DNA from: Bacteroidia bacterium
GTDB lineage: Bacteria > Bacteroidota > Bacteroidia > J057
NCBI GenBank assembly: GCA_019695295.1
Contig: JAIBAH010000012.1
Span: 1 to 64,000, forward strand
DNA: 64,000 nt
Direction of reading: 5' to 3'
Part shown: positions 53,545 to 59,968 of the stretch, in pieces
Position numbering within the stretch: the first letter of the stretch is position 1
Layout of the letters: each line of letters begins with the position of its first letter
Notes under the pieces: model-generated
What the model was told of the DNA's origin: nothing
The model's input: only the letters and a program-made list of their open reading frames with translations
Databases searched by the model: none
Position numbers and translations under genes: made by a program

Positions 53545-56500
53545 ATGGAAAAAACAATGAAAATCGTTAAGGTTTTGGGGATTTTTCTTCTCTTAACTAT
53601 TGGGTTAAATCCTCTGGGATATGCTCAGTTCCCGGTATTTGACTCTTTGCTTAAGGCGGGGAAATATAATACAATCGGTGAAATTCGGCCCGGGGGATTT
53701 GCGCTGACTAGCAATTCTCGTAAGGGCGATTTTTACCTCGAAAATGGCCAGAAAATCGTGATTCAAGGATATGAGCCTACGCAAATTCGGAGGGGAAAAT
53801 ACGGATACTTTCATTTTGAGGTGAATCAAAAATGGGGACTGACGAATTCTTTATTCCAGGTAGTGATTCCACCTGAGTATGATGGGCTTGCCCACATCGT
53901 TACGCCAGAATATTTTGTCGTTAAAAATGCGCAATCTGAAGGGCTTCTCCATATTTCAGGTAAGTTTATTTATCCGATTGAATATAAGGAAATTACTTGT
54001 TTGAGAATATTACCTGCCAATACTGTGAAATTTTCGTTTGATTATGACCCTACTCCAATTCCTCCTTTAGTCTGGATTCTTACGGATAACAACAATCAAA
54101 CCTGGCATCATGCCGGTGAAAAAAAATGGAAAATTCCTATTAGAGAAGCAGAAGAGATGGATGCTCCTCGTTTTCTGCAATCAGGCCAACTCCTGCTCAA
54201 AGAACCGAGACAGAATAGTCTTTTATCTTATGGAGATAACCAAGCTGAATTTCAATTCAATGAAATGTTTCGGATTACTTCTGACAGTATAGCATACCTA
54301 TCCGGAGCCGGAATATGGAAAGGAGGAATTCTAATGGTAAATTGGCAGCCCTTAGATACAGCGGGAAACCCTCTCCTTCCTTATCCGGTTCTTGATACCG
54401 ATGTCCTATCCCCAGAATATATCACCTGCGTAAAAGAACTAGAAGGAATTCCTGCACCGCCTTCTAAAGATGAGCATAAACCGTCGGACGAAAACCCCAT
54501 CGGAACGATTATCTGTGTTAAACCCGAAACCGAAGTAAAACCTCCTGAATGGAAAAAAGTACGACAGTTAATTCGCGTAAAAGACCGCAAAGTACTTCAT
54601 GAAATCCCGCTTCTCAGTAATAACTGTTATTATCTTCATCAGCAGCAGCTTATATGTGAGCATAGAGGTGTGGGTTCTCATACTCCTGACACGCTTTACG
54701 CGCTGGATGAAGCGGGGAAACATACCCGTATGCTGTTAGAAGAATACTTTACTCTGTATGCTCAGAGCCCACTTTTCTCGATGACAGAAAACAAAAAGGA
54801 AATTCTCTACAATTTTAAACTAAAAAACAACGGTATTCATTATAAGGAAATCAATCGGTCAGGAGACTTTCTGGAGTGTGAAAAAGGGTTTTATCTTTAT
54901 AAAAAGAGAACCAGACAATCGGGTACGCAGCGAAAGCCGATTTTCTCTATCCGAATTGTGGATTTTTACAGAGATAACCTGAAACGAGAAAAACGATATA
55001 TTCTCCTTCAAGGAAAAGAAGTTTACTGTACCTCCTCAATGAAAACGCTTACCTTTTTGGGGTTTCCCTTGAAGCGCATCAGACTTCATTTTAACGGAGG
55101 AAAAAAACGGATTGTCAGGGCGAGTAAGGTAGAGGAAACAGCGGAAGGCTTCTGGGTATGGCATGAAAAAGGCAAGAAAGAATCCGTGTTTGACATGGAT
55201 GGTAACCGGTTGGTTGACGCTGACAGAATCCCTGAAAACAATATGTGGACTAATAATCCAAAACCTCATCCTTATACTTTGTCCGGCAATCATATTCGAA
55301 GAAAAACGGATGTTTTTGTAAAGAAAGACGAAAAATGGTACGCAAAAAAAGGAAATACGGTAATCGAAATACCGGAAAACTATGATCGCTATTGGATTGT
55401 AGATAACGAAAACGCTGTGGAACCTAATCAAAAAGAGCTGGTAATCTATAATTTTTTACATACGAATTATATCGGTGCTGTCGATACTTTCGGAAACGAA
55501 ATTCTCCCTCCGGTATTTCATTCTTTTCATAAAGAAGGAAAATGGTGGATAATCAAAAAGTCGGAAAAAGAGTATGAATTGAGGGATTCCCTTTTTAATC
55601 CTGTATCCGGCGGGCAATATGAGTTTATTCAGTCTGTATGGGATAAACAATACCTGATTATGAAAAAATCCGGTAAAACGGGCTTGTTTTCTATGGATTT
55701 AAAACCCCTGATTCCGGCTGAGTATGATGGGATTACCCCGGAGGGCAGTGGGAGGGATGGTTATTTTCTACTCAGGAAAGAGGGTAAAATGGGGCTCGCA
55801 GATAACTACTTTAAATTATTGGTTCCGGTAGCGTTTGACTCTGTAGTCAAAATTTCTCCGTACACAGCCCGTCATTTCCCACCCGAAAACCCTTTTGTGT
55901 ATTTGGGGAAGATTCCGGGAAAAGATAAACTGGCAATTTATAATGAAGCCGGAGCTTTGGTTTCCAATGCTGAGTACTCGGGGGCTGGAGGAAGCATACG
56001 AGAGCCTTTTCTTTCCGTAAAAAAAGGGAGAAAATGGAAAATGATTCACGCCGAAACCGGAAAAGAAACGTATGGAAAAAGGCTTTTCTGGTACTATTCT
56101 TATGATGAAAATGACTATGGAAAAACGGTAAAAACTATGTGGGGTAGAAAAATTGTTCCTCGTACCCAAAACCTTAAATTAGAGGAGATAGGAGAATACT
56201 TAGTGGTACAAAAGAGCAACCGGAGATTTGAAATTATGGATACTACCGGTAAAGTCCGGTTTTCCCATAAGGGCAAAATTGATACAAAGTTAGAGCATGT
56301 CAAACTCTTTCCGGTTGAATACAACGGCAGGTTTGCATTGCTGGATTTTCGTGCTTTTCAGTTGGGATTATTTGATTATGAGGAACTGGAGCCGTTGTCC
56401 TACTACGAATGCCCTGCTTTTTGGGCGGTTTCTGAGGGAAAAGGAGGCGTTCTCAATGCCAATACAGGGGAGTGGATAGTGGAACCGGGACCGTATCGGA

Positions 56501-57531
56501 TGGAACCGGAGCCGCCTAACGGATGTGGGTACCTCTGCACGCAAATCGTTTTGTCCCGAAGAGATACGGTATCGCTTTCTGAGGCGGAAGCTACCCGGTT
56601 GTGGCCGGAAAAGAAGGGGAATGAATACGTCAGAAAGTGGGTGTTTGACCTTAATTCAAAGCAATCTGTACTAAGCCCTTACCGTTACATTGGGGCAGTA
56701 AGGTACAATCTTGCTCCGGTTTCAGATGGCAAAAAAGTAGGGGTAATGGATAACCTGAATCGTTTGGTTATTCCTCTGGAATGGGATAATGTGGAGATTT
56801 TGGATTCCAATTTTCTGGCAGCCTATAAAGATTGTAAATGGGCGGTGTATGACAGGCTGGGAAAGGAGATTCACCCTTTGTCTTTTGATGTGCTCATGAA
56901 AGAAGACGAATTTCCTGTTTTTTATTTTGAGTTCAATAAGAATAGTGGTTATTTGAACGGCAAAGGAGAAAATCTTTTTGGGGTGTCGTTGGATTCTGTC
57001 ATAAAGGGTGAAAATATTGAATTATTCAAAGACAATAAAACGGGATTGGGAAATTATAAAGGGGAAATCCTGCTTCCGGTTATCTATGATAAAATCGGGC
57101 CGGGTAGATATAAAGTGGATTTTGTGTTAACCCTGAACGGGAAAAAAGGGATTTGGAATCATGAGAAAGGGGAGTTGCTGCCTTGTGTTTATGATGATAT
57201 CAGGCTGGACGGCTCTGATTATATCCTTACGCTGTTCGGTAAGCAAGGGGTTTATTTTCCTGTAAACGGGGTTTTAATTTCTCCTGAATACAATGCCGTT
57301 AGCTCGGAGAGTCGTGCTTTTATAAGTAGTGAAAAATTTTATCTCCTGAAAAAGGAGGAAGGCACCCGAATCGCAGACGAAGCCGGAAAGGTAATCTTTC
57401 TACATACTTTTAGTGAAGTGGACTTTTTCCCCAAGGAAAACCGGATAAGCGTTGTACTTGGCGGAAAGCGGTACAATGGAATAAAAGTGGTTGACAAATG
57501 GAGGTTGTTTGAGGTTAAGACAGGCGGATGA
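53545..57531 (+). CDS. Large secreted WG-repeat protein
   Basis: A 1328-residue protein with an N-terminal signal peptide (about 1-28, ending GYAQF) followed by many WG-type repeats, each with a G-x-x-D/N-x-x-G-x-x-xxPxxYD... pattern: NQKWGLTNSLFQVVIPPEYDGL, KMGLADNYFKLLVPVAFDSV, KVGVMDNLNRLVIPLEWDNV, KTGLGNYKGEILLPVIYDKI. The first and last thirds are best defined; the middle is more divergent. WG repeats form a beta-propeller-like array of unknown function. No T9SS C-terminal domain, so it is perhaps periplasmic or anchored. A paralogous gene follows (58012). Confidence 0.85.
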   Translation: MEKTMKIVKVLGIFLLLTIGLNPLGYAQFPVFDSLLKAGKYNTIGEIRPGGFALTSNSRKGDFYLENGQKIVIQGYEPTQIRRGKYGYFHFEVNQKWGLTNSLFQVVIPPEYDGLAHIVTPEYFVVKNAQSEGLLHISGKFIYPIEYKEITCLRILPANTVKFSFDYDPTPIPPLVWILTDNNNQTWHHAGEKKWKIPIREAEEMDAPRFLQSGQLLLKEPRQNSLLSYGDNQAEFQFNEMFRITSDSIAYLSGAGIWKGGILMVNWQPLDTAGNPLLPYPVLDTDVLSPEYITCVKELEGIPAPPSKDEHKPSDENPIGTIICVKPETEVKPPEWKKVRQLIRVKDRKVLHEIPLLSNNCYYLHQQQLICEHRGVGSHTPDTLYALDEAGKHTRMLLEEYFTLYAQSPLFSMTENKKEILYNFKLKNNGIHYKEINRSGDFLECEKGFYLYKKRTRQSGTQRKPIFSIRIVDFYRDNLKREKRYILLQGKEVYCTSSMKTLTFLGFPLKRIRLHFNGGKKRIVRASKVEETAEGFWVWHEKGKKESVFDMDGNRLVDADRIPENNMWTNNPKPHPYTLSGNHIRRKTDVFVKKDEKWYAKKGNTVIEIPENYDRYWIVDNENAVEPNQKELVIYNFLHTNYIGAVDTFGNEILPPVFHSFHKEGKWWIIKKSEKEYELRDSLFNPVSGGQYEFIQSVWDKQYLIMKKSGKTGLFSMDLKPLIPAEYDGITPEGSGRDGYFLLRKEGKMGLADNYFKLLVPVAFDSVVKISPYTARHFPPENPFVYLGKIPGKDKLAIYNEAGALVSNAEYSGAGGSIREPFLSVKKGRKWKMIHAETGKETYGKRLFWYYSYDENDYGKTVKTMWGRKIVPRTQNLKLEEIGEYLVVQKSNRRFEIMDTTGKVRFSHKGKIDTKLEHVKLFPVEYNGRFALLDFRAFQLGLFDYEELEPLSYYECPAFWAVSEGKGGVLNANTGEWIVEPGPYRMEPEPPNGCGYLCTQIVLSRRDTVSLSEAEATRLWPEKKGNEYVRKWVFDLNSKQSVLSPYRYIGAVRYNLAPVSDGKKVGVMDNLNRLVIPLEWDNVEILDSNFLAAYKDCKWAVYDRLGKEIHPLSFDVLMKEDEFPVFYFEFNKNSGYLNGKGENLFGVSLDSVIKGENIELFKDNKTGLGNYKGEILLPVIYDKIGPGRYKVDFVLTLNGKKGIWNHEKGELLPCVYDDIRLDGSDYILTLFGKQGVYFPVNGVLISPEYNAVSSESRAFISSEKFYLLKKEEGTRIADEAGKVIFLHTFSEVDFFPKENRISVVLGGKRYNGIKVVDKWRLFEVKTGG

Positions 57532-57605
57532 TAGCCAGTAGAAATAAGCCCGGTGGAAATATTGATGCTTCCTGTTTGCCTGCGTTTCCTGAATCTCTTT
57601 AAAGT
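57532..57605. other. Short spacer before MITE-like element 1
   Basis: 74 nt with no supported gene. Read on the minus strand it carries a protein-like frame (FKEIQETQANRKHQYFHRAYF), which runs from the element into the 3' end of the WG gene. It may be a remnant of a gene split by the element. Confidence 0.3.
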
Positions 57606-57728
57606 AGGACTTACGCAATTTACTGTTTTTAGGCATTTCGACTTAGTTCGGCTTTCGCACACTCACCACCGGTCAATGACGCCAAAACAGTAAATTACCG
57701 ATAAAATAGACCTTTTTGCGTAAGTCCT
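57606..57728. mobile_element. MITE-like element 1, 123 bp
   Basis: Perfect 13-bp terminal inverted repeats (AGGACTTACGCAA at 57606-57618 and TTGCGTAAGTCCT at 57716-57728) and an inner 13-bp inverted repeat (AATTTACTGTTTT with AAAACAGTAAATT). The centre contains a TTCGACTTAGTTCGG...GGTCAATGAC block shared in outline with element 2. No transposase is encoded, so it fits a miniature inverted-repeat element mobilised in trans. Target-site duplication is not clear. Confidence 0.65.
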
Positions 57729-57821
57729 GTAAAGATAAAATCGTACAATCCTGTTGATTTCGCCAAAAAGCAAATCAATTGCGGTACCCGTTTCGGCACT
57801 TTTTTCGGTTAACTTGTTCAT
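57663..57821 (-). pseudogene. Reading frame interrupted by MITE-like element 1
   Basis: Minus-strand frame of 52 codons from an ATG at 57821. The first 31 codons (MNKLTEKSAETGTAIDLLFG and on to RFYLY) lie outside the element and look protein-like; the rest is element sequence ending in TGA. Most simply, the element cut off the 3' part of a small gene. Confidence 0.35.
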
Positions 57822-58011
57822 CTTATAGCGTCAGTTACTGAAAGCGGGTAGATATTTGCCCGCGCTTTGTGCTATTTCTCAGAGATAGAAACCCTTGGGC
57901 TTTCGGAACTCATTCCTGAGAATTACTTCGCCTGCGCAAGTTTTGAAACCAATCAGGGGTAATTGGCGTATCAGTAAGTTGATTTTCACTTTCATTAAAA
58001 CAACTGTATAT
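57822..58011. other. Intergenic before second WG gene
   Basis: 190 nt. I see nothing beyond an AAAGCGGGTAGATATTTGCCCGCGCTTT stretch near 57840-57867, an imperfect hairpin, and AT-rich leader sequence. No consensus promoter. Confidence 0.3.
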
Positions 58012-59649
58012 ATGAATCCTAAATTCATGAAAAAAGTATCAATTGTATTGTGCGTCATCTGTAACATTCTTAATGCTGTTAATCTTTCAGCTCAGGAAAA
58101 TCTGTATAAAATTGTTTCTCCCTCGGGACAGATTATAAAATATGTAGAGTATGATAACTGTTATAACTATTCACATGGGCTTGCACCTGTTCAGTCAGGG
58201 GTTTCCTGGGGCTATATTGACGCAGAGGGGAATCCTGCTATTCCAAAGGGGAAGCCATTTTATTTTGATGCTGCCGAAGAGTTTGGGAAATATGGATTGG
58301 CACTGGTGTGGGCAAAGGGGCAGTACCGGTTCATTAATACCTCAGGAAATAATGCTTTTTCCATGGAATTTGAGGAGGCTTATGGATTTGGAGAAGAAAA
58401 CACCGCAGTGGTCAAACACAACGGACAATATGGCCTGATTGACCTGAAAGGTAATTTTGCTATTCCCGCGAAGTACGAAGGGATTAACCGGTACGGGAAT
58501 CTGGCGGTAATTTATAATGGCGAAAAGTTTGCACTCTTCCATACAAATGGTCAGGCATTGACAGACTTTGTATATGATAATATCGGACTTCAGGAGGGGT
58601 TGATGTTCGAAAATAGAATTCCTGTAAGGCAAAACAATCGCTGGGGTTTTACTGATGAGGGAGGAAAGTTAGTCATTCCTCTTCAATATGAAGAAGTCAG
58701 CCGGTTTTCTGAAGGCCTGGCCGGATTTAGGGAAAACAGTAGGTCCGGGTATTTGGATAAAGAAGGGAAGTTGATTATCCCCCCCGCCTACGAGAATACA
58801 GACCTTTTTTCTGAAGGGCTTGCACTTGTGAGTAAAGATAACCTCTGGGGTTATATCGGCAAAAAAGGGGAGGTGGTAATCCCGCTTGCTTATTCCTATG
58901 CGGGTAGGTTTAATGAGGGAGTAGCCTATGTTTCCAGAGGGGATAATAATTTTTATATTGACAAAACCGGCAGGCAAGTGGAAGAGCCTTCTCTCAGGCA
59001 TACAAATCTTGAAACTCCCAAATTAAGTATTATCGCTGTTGAGGAAAAAATGAATGTTAGCCTGAATTACCCTGATTTACAATTAAGAGTAGATAAATTT
59101 TGGGAAGCCAATAATGGTTCCGCCACAAGCGGCAAAATCTACGACCTGAGAAACAACCAGCTCATTGGGGATGGAGTAACCTTTGAACGGGGAAAAATTA
59201 TCGGAGGAAAATTTTATACCAATGGGCGTACACTCGATATTAACAGGGGTGAGGGTATTTTGCTGGCAGATTTACAAAAAGTAATCGCTGCCGAAGCAGC
59301 AAAACCTGTAGCTAAACCCCAACCCCAAACGGTTATCTCAAAAGAAGAGAACGAGGAAATGATTAAACGCTATACAGAACTGGGTGATTTATTCGATAAA
59401 GCCACTTTGGATTATGATAAATATTATCTGATAGCCCTGGAGTTTGATCTGGAGGCAAGCAATGAAACGGAAAGAAAAGAGAATTTATACAGAAAGATTA
59501 AACCGTTTCAGGAAACTGTGGACAAAATCGTGGAAAAGACCAGTTATTTACTTGCAAATGACACTCGTATGAAGCCCGAAACGAGAAAAGCACTGACCGA
59601 CGCGATTCCCAAATATCAGGCTATGGTTGATAAGTTGCGCAGTTTGTAA
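58012..59649 (+). CDS. Secreted WG-repeat protein with helical C-terminus
   Basis: 545 residues from the ATG at 58012 (an ATG at 58027 gives MKKVSIVLC and is equally plausible). Signal peptide ending LSAQ. The first about 320 residues hold seven or so WG repeats (SWGYIDAEGNPAIPKGK, QYGLIDLKGNFAIPAKYEG, RWGFTDEGGKLVIPLQYEEV, RSGYLDKEGKLIIPPAYENT, LWGYIGKKGEVVIPLAYSYA). A middle beta domain (DKFWEANNGSATSGKIYDLR) and a 100-residue helical, charged tail (NEEMIKRYTELGDLFDKATLDYDK) follow. It lies between the two MITE-like elements and is transcribed in the same direction as the other WG gene. Confidence 0.88.
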   Translation: MNPKFMKKVSIVLCVICNILNAVNLSAQENLYKIVSPSGQIIKYVEYDNCYNYSHGLAPVQSGVSWGYIDAEGNPAIPKGKPFYFDAAEEFGKYGLALVWAKGQYRFINTSGNNAFSMEFEEAYGFGEENTAVVKHNGQYGLIDLKGNFAIPAKYEGINRYGNLAVIYNGEKFALFHTNGQALTDFVYDNIGLQEGLMFENRIPVRQNNRWGFTDEGGKLVIPLQYEEVSRFSEGLAGFRENSRSGYLDKEGKLIIPPAYENTDLFSEGLALVSKDNLWGYIGKKGEVVIPLAYSYAGRFNEGVAYVSRGDNNFYIDKTGRQVEEPSLRHTNLETPKLSIIAVEEKMNVSLNYPDLQLRVDKFWEANNGSATSGKIYDLRNNQLIGDGVTFERGKIIGGKFYTNGRTLDINRGEGILLADLQKVIAAEAAKPVAKPQPQTVISKEENEEMIKRYTELGDLFDKATLDYDKYYLIALEFDLEASNETERKENLYRKIKPFQETVDKIVEKTSYLLANDTRMKPETRKALTDAIPKYQAMVDKLRSL

Positions 59650-59701
59650 ATATCTCCTTGAAACTTTTCTCCTTTTAAAAAGAGTGGATTTGCGGGAAAT
59701 A

Positions 59702-59968
59702 TTAATAGCAGGACTTATGCAAACCTGTGTTTTGGGGTACATTCCGGGTTAGTTCGACTCCGCTCACTAACCCGCCGCTCAATGACCCGAAAACAAATGA
59801 TTCTGAATAAAAATGCGTAAGTCGTGAATAGAAATCATCCTGATTTTTCCTTTTGAAAACTTCAGAATCAATCTTCCTGAAAACTACTGCCGGTTTTGTT
59901 GGGTTTATAATCGTAATGGAATCGGGATTCTCTGGCGGGGAGAGCAAATCGGAATTGTAGCCTGAGAA
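59702..59968 (-). pseudogene. Coding-like frame running into MITE-like element 2
   Basis: An 88-codon minus-strand open frame with only TTG as a possible start. The part outside the element (LLSPPENPDSITIINPTKPA to RKNQDDFYS) is protein-like; the rest is element sequence. As at element 1, the frame enters from the element's right side. It may be the trace of a gene destroyed by insertion. Confidence 0.3.
59710..59825. mobile_element. MITE-like element 2, 116 bp
   Basis: Terminal inverted repeats AGGACTTATGCA (59710-59721) and TGCGTAAGTCGT (59814-59825) pair with two mismatches. An inner pair TGTTTTGGGGT with ACCCGAAAACA has one mismatch, and a 9-bp hairpin arm CGGGTTAGT with ACTAACCCG surrounds TCGACTCCGCTC. 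Overall layout and the central CATT...GTTCGAC...CAATGAC block match element 1, in the same orientation. More diverged ends suggest an older copy. Confidence 0.58.

Follow-up and report, generated by a model that had tools for sequence, protein, structure and literature searches.

The window, i.e., the whole stretch of 64,000 nucleotides that was analyzed, carries near its right end two short elements with terminal inverted repeats (TIRs), located on either side of a gene encoding a protein with WG repeats. The two elements have the same orientation. The features of this locus are as follows:

57600–57604, no strand: target-site duplication TAAAG, left of element 1
57606–57728, + strand: element 1, MITE copy 1 with the long form of the core (123 bp), carrying TIRs and an inner repeat, member of a 12-copy family
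57606–57618, + strand: left TIR of element 1 (13 bp); the base T at 57605 is part of the IS consensus end TAGGACTTACGCA
57617–57629, + strand: left arm of the inner inverted repeat of element 1 (13 bp), with compensatory changes between copies at three pairs
57634–57680, no strand: core palindrome of element 1, long form (CATTTCGACT...GTCAATGAC), delimited by alignment and having free-standing relatives
57684–57696, − strand: right arm of the inner inverted repeat of element 1, making a perfect inner repeat
57716–57728, − strand: right TIR of element 1, perfect match to the left TIR
57730–57734, no strand: target-site duplication TAAAG, right of element 1
58012–59649, + strand: WG-repeat gene, an open frame with eight WG stretches (PF14903, E = 9e-53), taken as resident and not as cargo
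59704–59708, no strand: target-site duplication AATAG, left of element 2
59710–59825, + strand: element 2, diverged MITE copy 2 (116 bp), with 58–67% identity to all other copies outside the core
59710–59721, + strand: left TIR of element 2
59728–59743, + strand: left arm of the inner hairpin of element 2, from RNA folding
59781–59795, − strand: right arm of the inner hairpin of element 2, from RNA folding
59814–59825, − strand: right TIR of element 2
59827–59831, no strand: target-site duplication AATAG, right of element 2

A sequence-only reading of this DNA had described two MITE-like elements sharing one plan, the first with perfect 13-bp TIRs and a nested inner repeat, the second with more mismatches, and both devoid of transposase. 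The coordinates agree with this description for element 1, and element 2 follows the same plan, as its TIRs match at 10 of 12 positions (AGGACTTATGCA / TGCGTAAGTCGT) and it likewise contains an inner hairpin. Inspection of the open frames found no credible gene in either element, which confirms the lack of transposase. The z-scores of RNA folding are −4.9 for element 1 and −4.5 for element 2, with no shuffled sequence equally stable.

A BLAST search with element 1 alone as query found copies on other contigs (E down to 8e-21), and a search of the whole genome with a model, built partly from elements 1 and 2 themselves, recovered element 1 with E = 1e-26 and element 2 with E = 1e-19. Together with the folding scores, these values place the elements well beyond anything due to chance. 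The BLAST search with element 1 and a sequence-only family model derived from ten copies revealed that this genome of 4.9 Mb has 12 detectable copies, 10 of full length and two weak (C117 and C176). Such a genome-wide search for like-ended repeats had been proposed in the sequence-only reading, for which an absence of further copies, together with an identical arrangement in all distant relatives, would have pointed to a fixed structure; 12 copies were found instead. The members of this family are 90–124 bp long, have TIRs of 12–13 bp and carry no gene; open frames overlap copies only at element 1 and C124, where they are short and antisense. Eight of the 10 full copies (all but C73 and C124) are flanked by a perfect 5-bp duplication located one base beyond the 12-bp repeat, and these eight duplications are all distinct (ACATA, CCTTT, CATAA, TAAAG, AATAG, TAAAT, AATCA and TTAAT). 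As a control, other offsets gave two matching pentamers in 480 comparisons. The duplications flanking elements 1 and 2 had been missed in the sequence-only reading, whose term MITE-like is nevertheless borne out by the multiple copies, the 5-bp target duplications and the existence of a full-length IS sharing the same ends (see below). This MITE family is real and typical, and its members are clear cases of an already known kind of element.

The elements could also be seen as fixed RNA or regulatory structures, such as terminators or mRNA stabilizers, rather than as mobile DNA. The 12 copies all lie in intergenic regions, in five cases between convergent genes, and their strong predicted hairpins show compensatory changes at three pairs, all of which would suit such structures. 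However, the target duplications at eight of the 10 full copies and the existence of congeners that are devoid of this family, yet carry other MITEs with the same ends, argue for mobile DNA and make a fixed structure very unlikely. Searches for such a structure were empty: the elements have no match in Rfam, and promoter and terminator scans found no site within them. The elements may have a secondary effect on neighboring transcripts.

The two elements had also been proposed to bound the WG-repeat gene like the ends of a composite unit, i.e., a composite transposon in which both elements and the gene move together. Their identical orientation, the span of 2.2 kb and the single intact gene inside fit this proposal, and with 12 copies in 4.9 Mb, the expected number of pairs at such a short distance is only about 0.06. 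However, a composite transposon should be flanked by one duplication outside both elements, whereas elements 1 and 2 are flanked by separate 5-bp duplications, so that the outer sides of the pair do not match (TAAAG vs. AATAG). It should also have near-identical terminal elements, whereas the arms of elements 1 and 2 (outside the core) are only 60% identical. The two are not sister copies, the nearest copy of element 1 being C73, with 94% identity outside the core. Furthermore, the GC content of the WG gene (41.4%) is that of its surroundings (40.6% for the window), the unit as a whole is found nowhere else in the genome, and the other genomic matches to the WG gene are weak and partial. Lastly, relatives of the WG protein in two congeners are not bracketed: a full-length relative with 40% identity in G001 is devoid of flanking elements, and a shorter match with 34% identity in a second congener has no bracketing elements. 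The nearest genomes belong to different species, and their WG proteins show only 34–40% identity. The composite transposon was thus rejected as extremely improbable, on the basis of the separate duplications, the divergence of the elements and the unbracketed relatives in congeners. Given the separate duplications and the unequal outer flanks, elements 1 and 2 were inserted separately. The closeness of the two copies, although mildly unusual, can be accounted for without any special cause. More generally, this locus illustrates how separate target duplications decide whether two nearby elements make a composite unit.

Another WG-repeat gene (53545–57531) precedes the gene at 58012–59649 on the same strand, and weakly similar WG genes are also found at G000:C100 and C191. 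A lone AGGACTTACACA-like sequence lies about 1.3 kb upstream of the WG relative in G001.

Between the arms, the family members carry a core that is either short (CATTTCGACTACGCTCAATG) or long, the long form including a nested second palindrome, and the family alignment shows the core in both orientations with respect to the arms. Even where the arms are almost the same, the cores can differ: in length between element 1 and C73, and in orientation between element 1 and C23. The short-core pattern is present at six places in the genome; five of these belong to the MITE family, whereas the sixth, at C222, stands by itself, as does a long-form core at C77. The suggestion that the core is a separate palindrome carried inside the elements is therefore partly right, since its length and orientation vary among copies and since it is found alone at C222, at C77 and in a congener; on the other hand, it is rare outside MITEs in this genome. 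The core palindrome is thus a semi-independent repeat. In the congener, free-standing copies of the core palindrome (GGTCATTGAGCGAAGTCGAAATGACC) lie outside any MITE at G001:C112 (L114, near 1520–1610). The compensatory changes between copies in the inner arms could result from gene conversion between the arms or from selection for the hairpin.

The sequence-only reading had also proposed to search for a transposase gene with the same ends. This search led to a full-length IS, of which only the termini of the coding sequence are assembled. The IS ends AGGACTTACGCA are present at 16 places, each about 80–125 bp from the end of a contig. Eight of these are A ends and eight are B ends; A and B ends have the same terminal sequence followed by two different interiors. 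The location of these 16 ends close to contig ends indicates a near-identical multi-copy IS, the body of which was collapsed during assembly. When A and B ends are matched by their flanking 5-bp repeats, read on the same strand, six of the eight find a partner with an identical repeat, whereas other registers give at most three pairs. The interior of the IS is absent from the assembly, and no more of its transposase can be read than about 13 residues at the N terminus and 38 at the C terminus; the full-length IS is presumably intact in the genome, with its middle unassembled.

The reading frame at the A end has its stop codon within the terminal repeat. Its last 38 residues show 46% identity with the C terminus of a transposase from a Nodularia plasmid, which is a weak database match, but the score of this comparison is 80 compared to a maximum of 49 for 2000 shuffled sequences. 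The gene of this Nodularia transposase sits between the same ends as the IS, and its product matches NF049921 (IS701 family transposase) with 418 bits, above the cut-off. Another genome of the phylum carries a degenerate copy with the same ends (L078), which matches the peptide with a score of 60 compared to a shuffled maximum of 44. Furthermore, a relic at C144 (G000, L075, around 1398–1632) consists of a GGGACTTATGCA end and, behind it, the N-terminal part of an IS701_2-type transposase, namely the first 45 residues of an NF049921-type transposase, which run into unrelated sequence. The 38-residue peptide alone gave no match with family models, and nothing was found with this peptide in 394 other genomes of the phylum, with the B-end DNA in 99 relatives, or in the literature that was searched for the end sequence. 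Judging from these sequence comparisons, the terminal coding sequence of the IS appears to resemble that of an IS701-like DDE transposase (NCBIfam NF049921).

Almost all members of IS701 generate a duplication of exactly 4 bp, and direct repeats of around five bp are reported for the IS701/ISH3/IS1634 group (PMC2266710). Here, the duplications are of 5 bp for both the IS and the MITEs, compared to 4 bp in IS701 proper, and the likely parent is therefore named only IS701-like. The sequence shared by the MITEs and the full IS is confined to the ends, with MITE ends usually being T...G and IS ends T...A. At the start of another contig (G000:C24:82-93, L048), a variant end AGGACTTACGCT precedes a different interior, perhaps that of a second IS of the same type.

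Taken together, elements 1 and 2 belong, with high probability, to a MITE family of about 12 copies and were inserted independently, most likely moved in trans by the resident IS701-like IS. The unassembled interior of the IS, the lack of a family-model match for the 38-residue peptide, the restriction of the shared sequence to the ends, the difference between T...G and T...A ends, and the missing perfect duplication at C73 and C124 weigh against this explanation. The shared ends, the 5-bp duplications and the IS701-like terminal coding sequence indicate that they are probably non-autonomous passengers of this IS701-like element; their mobilization by this particular IS is deduced from sequence and would proceed as follows. 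The IS701-like transposase would recognize the shared ends TAGGACTTACGCA on the MITE, and the element would be inserted into a target whose strands are cut 5 bp apart. The inner arms and the core give the element the form of a long hairpin. The WG gene is an ordinary resident gene located by chance between two insertions. The MITE family and the IS provide a checkable pair of MITE and likely parent in a little-studied lineage.

Several known systems can be compared with this family. IS701-like ISs (NF049921), such as that of the Nodularia spumigena plasmid NZ_CP020115, have the same TIRs as the MITE family, but the MITEs carry no gene and have the ends alone in common with these ISs. Among Bacteroidota, MITECca01 from Cardinium is an IS982-derived MITE (PMC9769881); BrickBuilt/MITE239 from Porphyromonas gingivalis has IS5-type ends, and P. 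gingivalis MITEs have shared ends but unrelated interiors (PMC4596501). Like the present family, MITECca01 and BrickBuilt/MITE239 are short, encode no transposase and have ends in common with a resident IS. However, their end sequences and IS families are different, and the present family is distinguished by a nested palindromic core of two lengths found in both orientations. Nezha, reportedly described by Zhou in 2008 (cited in PMC10969869) as a MITE of cyanobacteria, is also a prokaryotic MITE, and its phylum also includes an IS with the present ends (in Nodularia).

The family model found no close member outside this genome. However, two congeners carry elements of 91–115 bp that have the same 13-bp ends but unrelated interiors. 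A perfect duplication (AGACT) flanks one of these elements but not the others. It is conceivable, although doubtful, that each species of the genus built its own MITE family, with unrelated interiors behind the same 13-bp IS ends; here, the interior would be a hairpin with a REP-like core palindrome that is swapped among the copies and has been extended or turned around in some of them, the MITE thereby acting as a vehicle for a second, smaller repeat. Unrelated interiors repeatedly built behind one IS end would give a modest lead on the origin of MITEs. The TAGGACTTACGCA-ended MITEs with unrelated interiors are L149 and L151 in G001, and L150, L154, L158, L160, L162, L165 and L166 in G002; those of G001 have a long-hairpin build.
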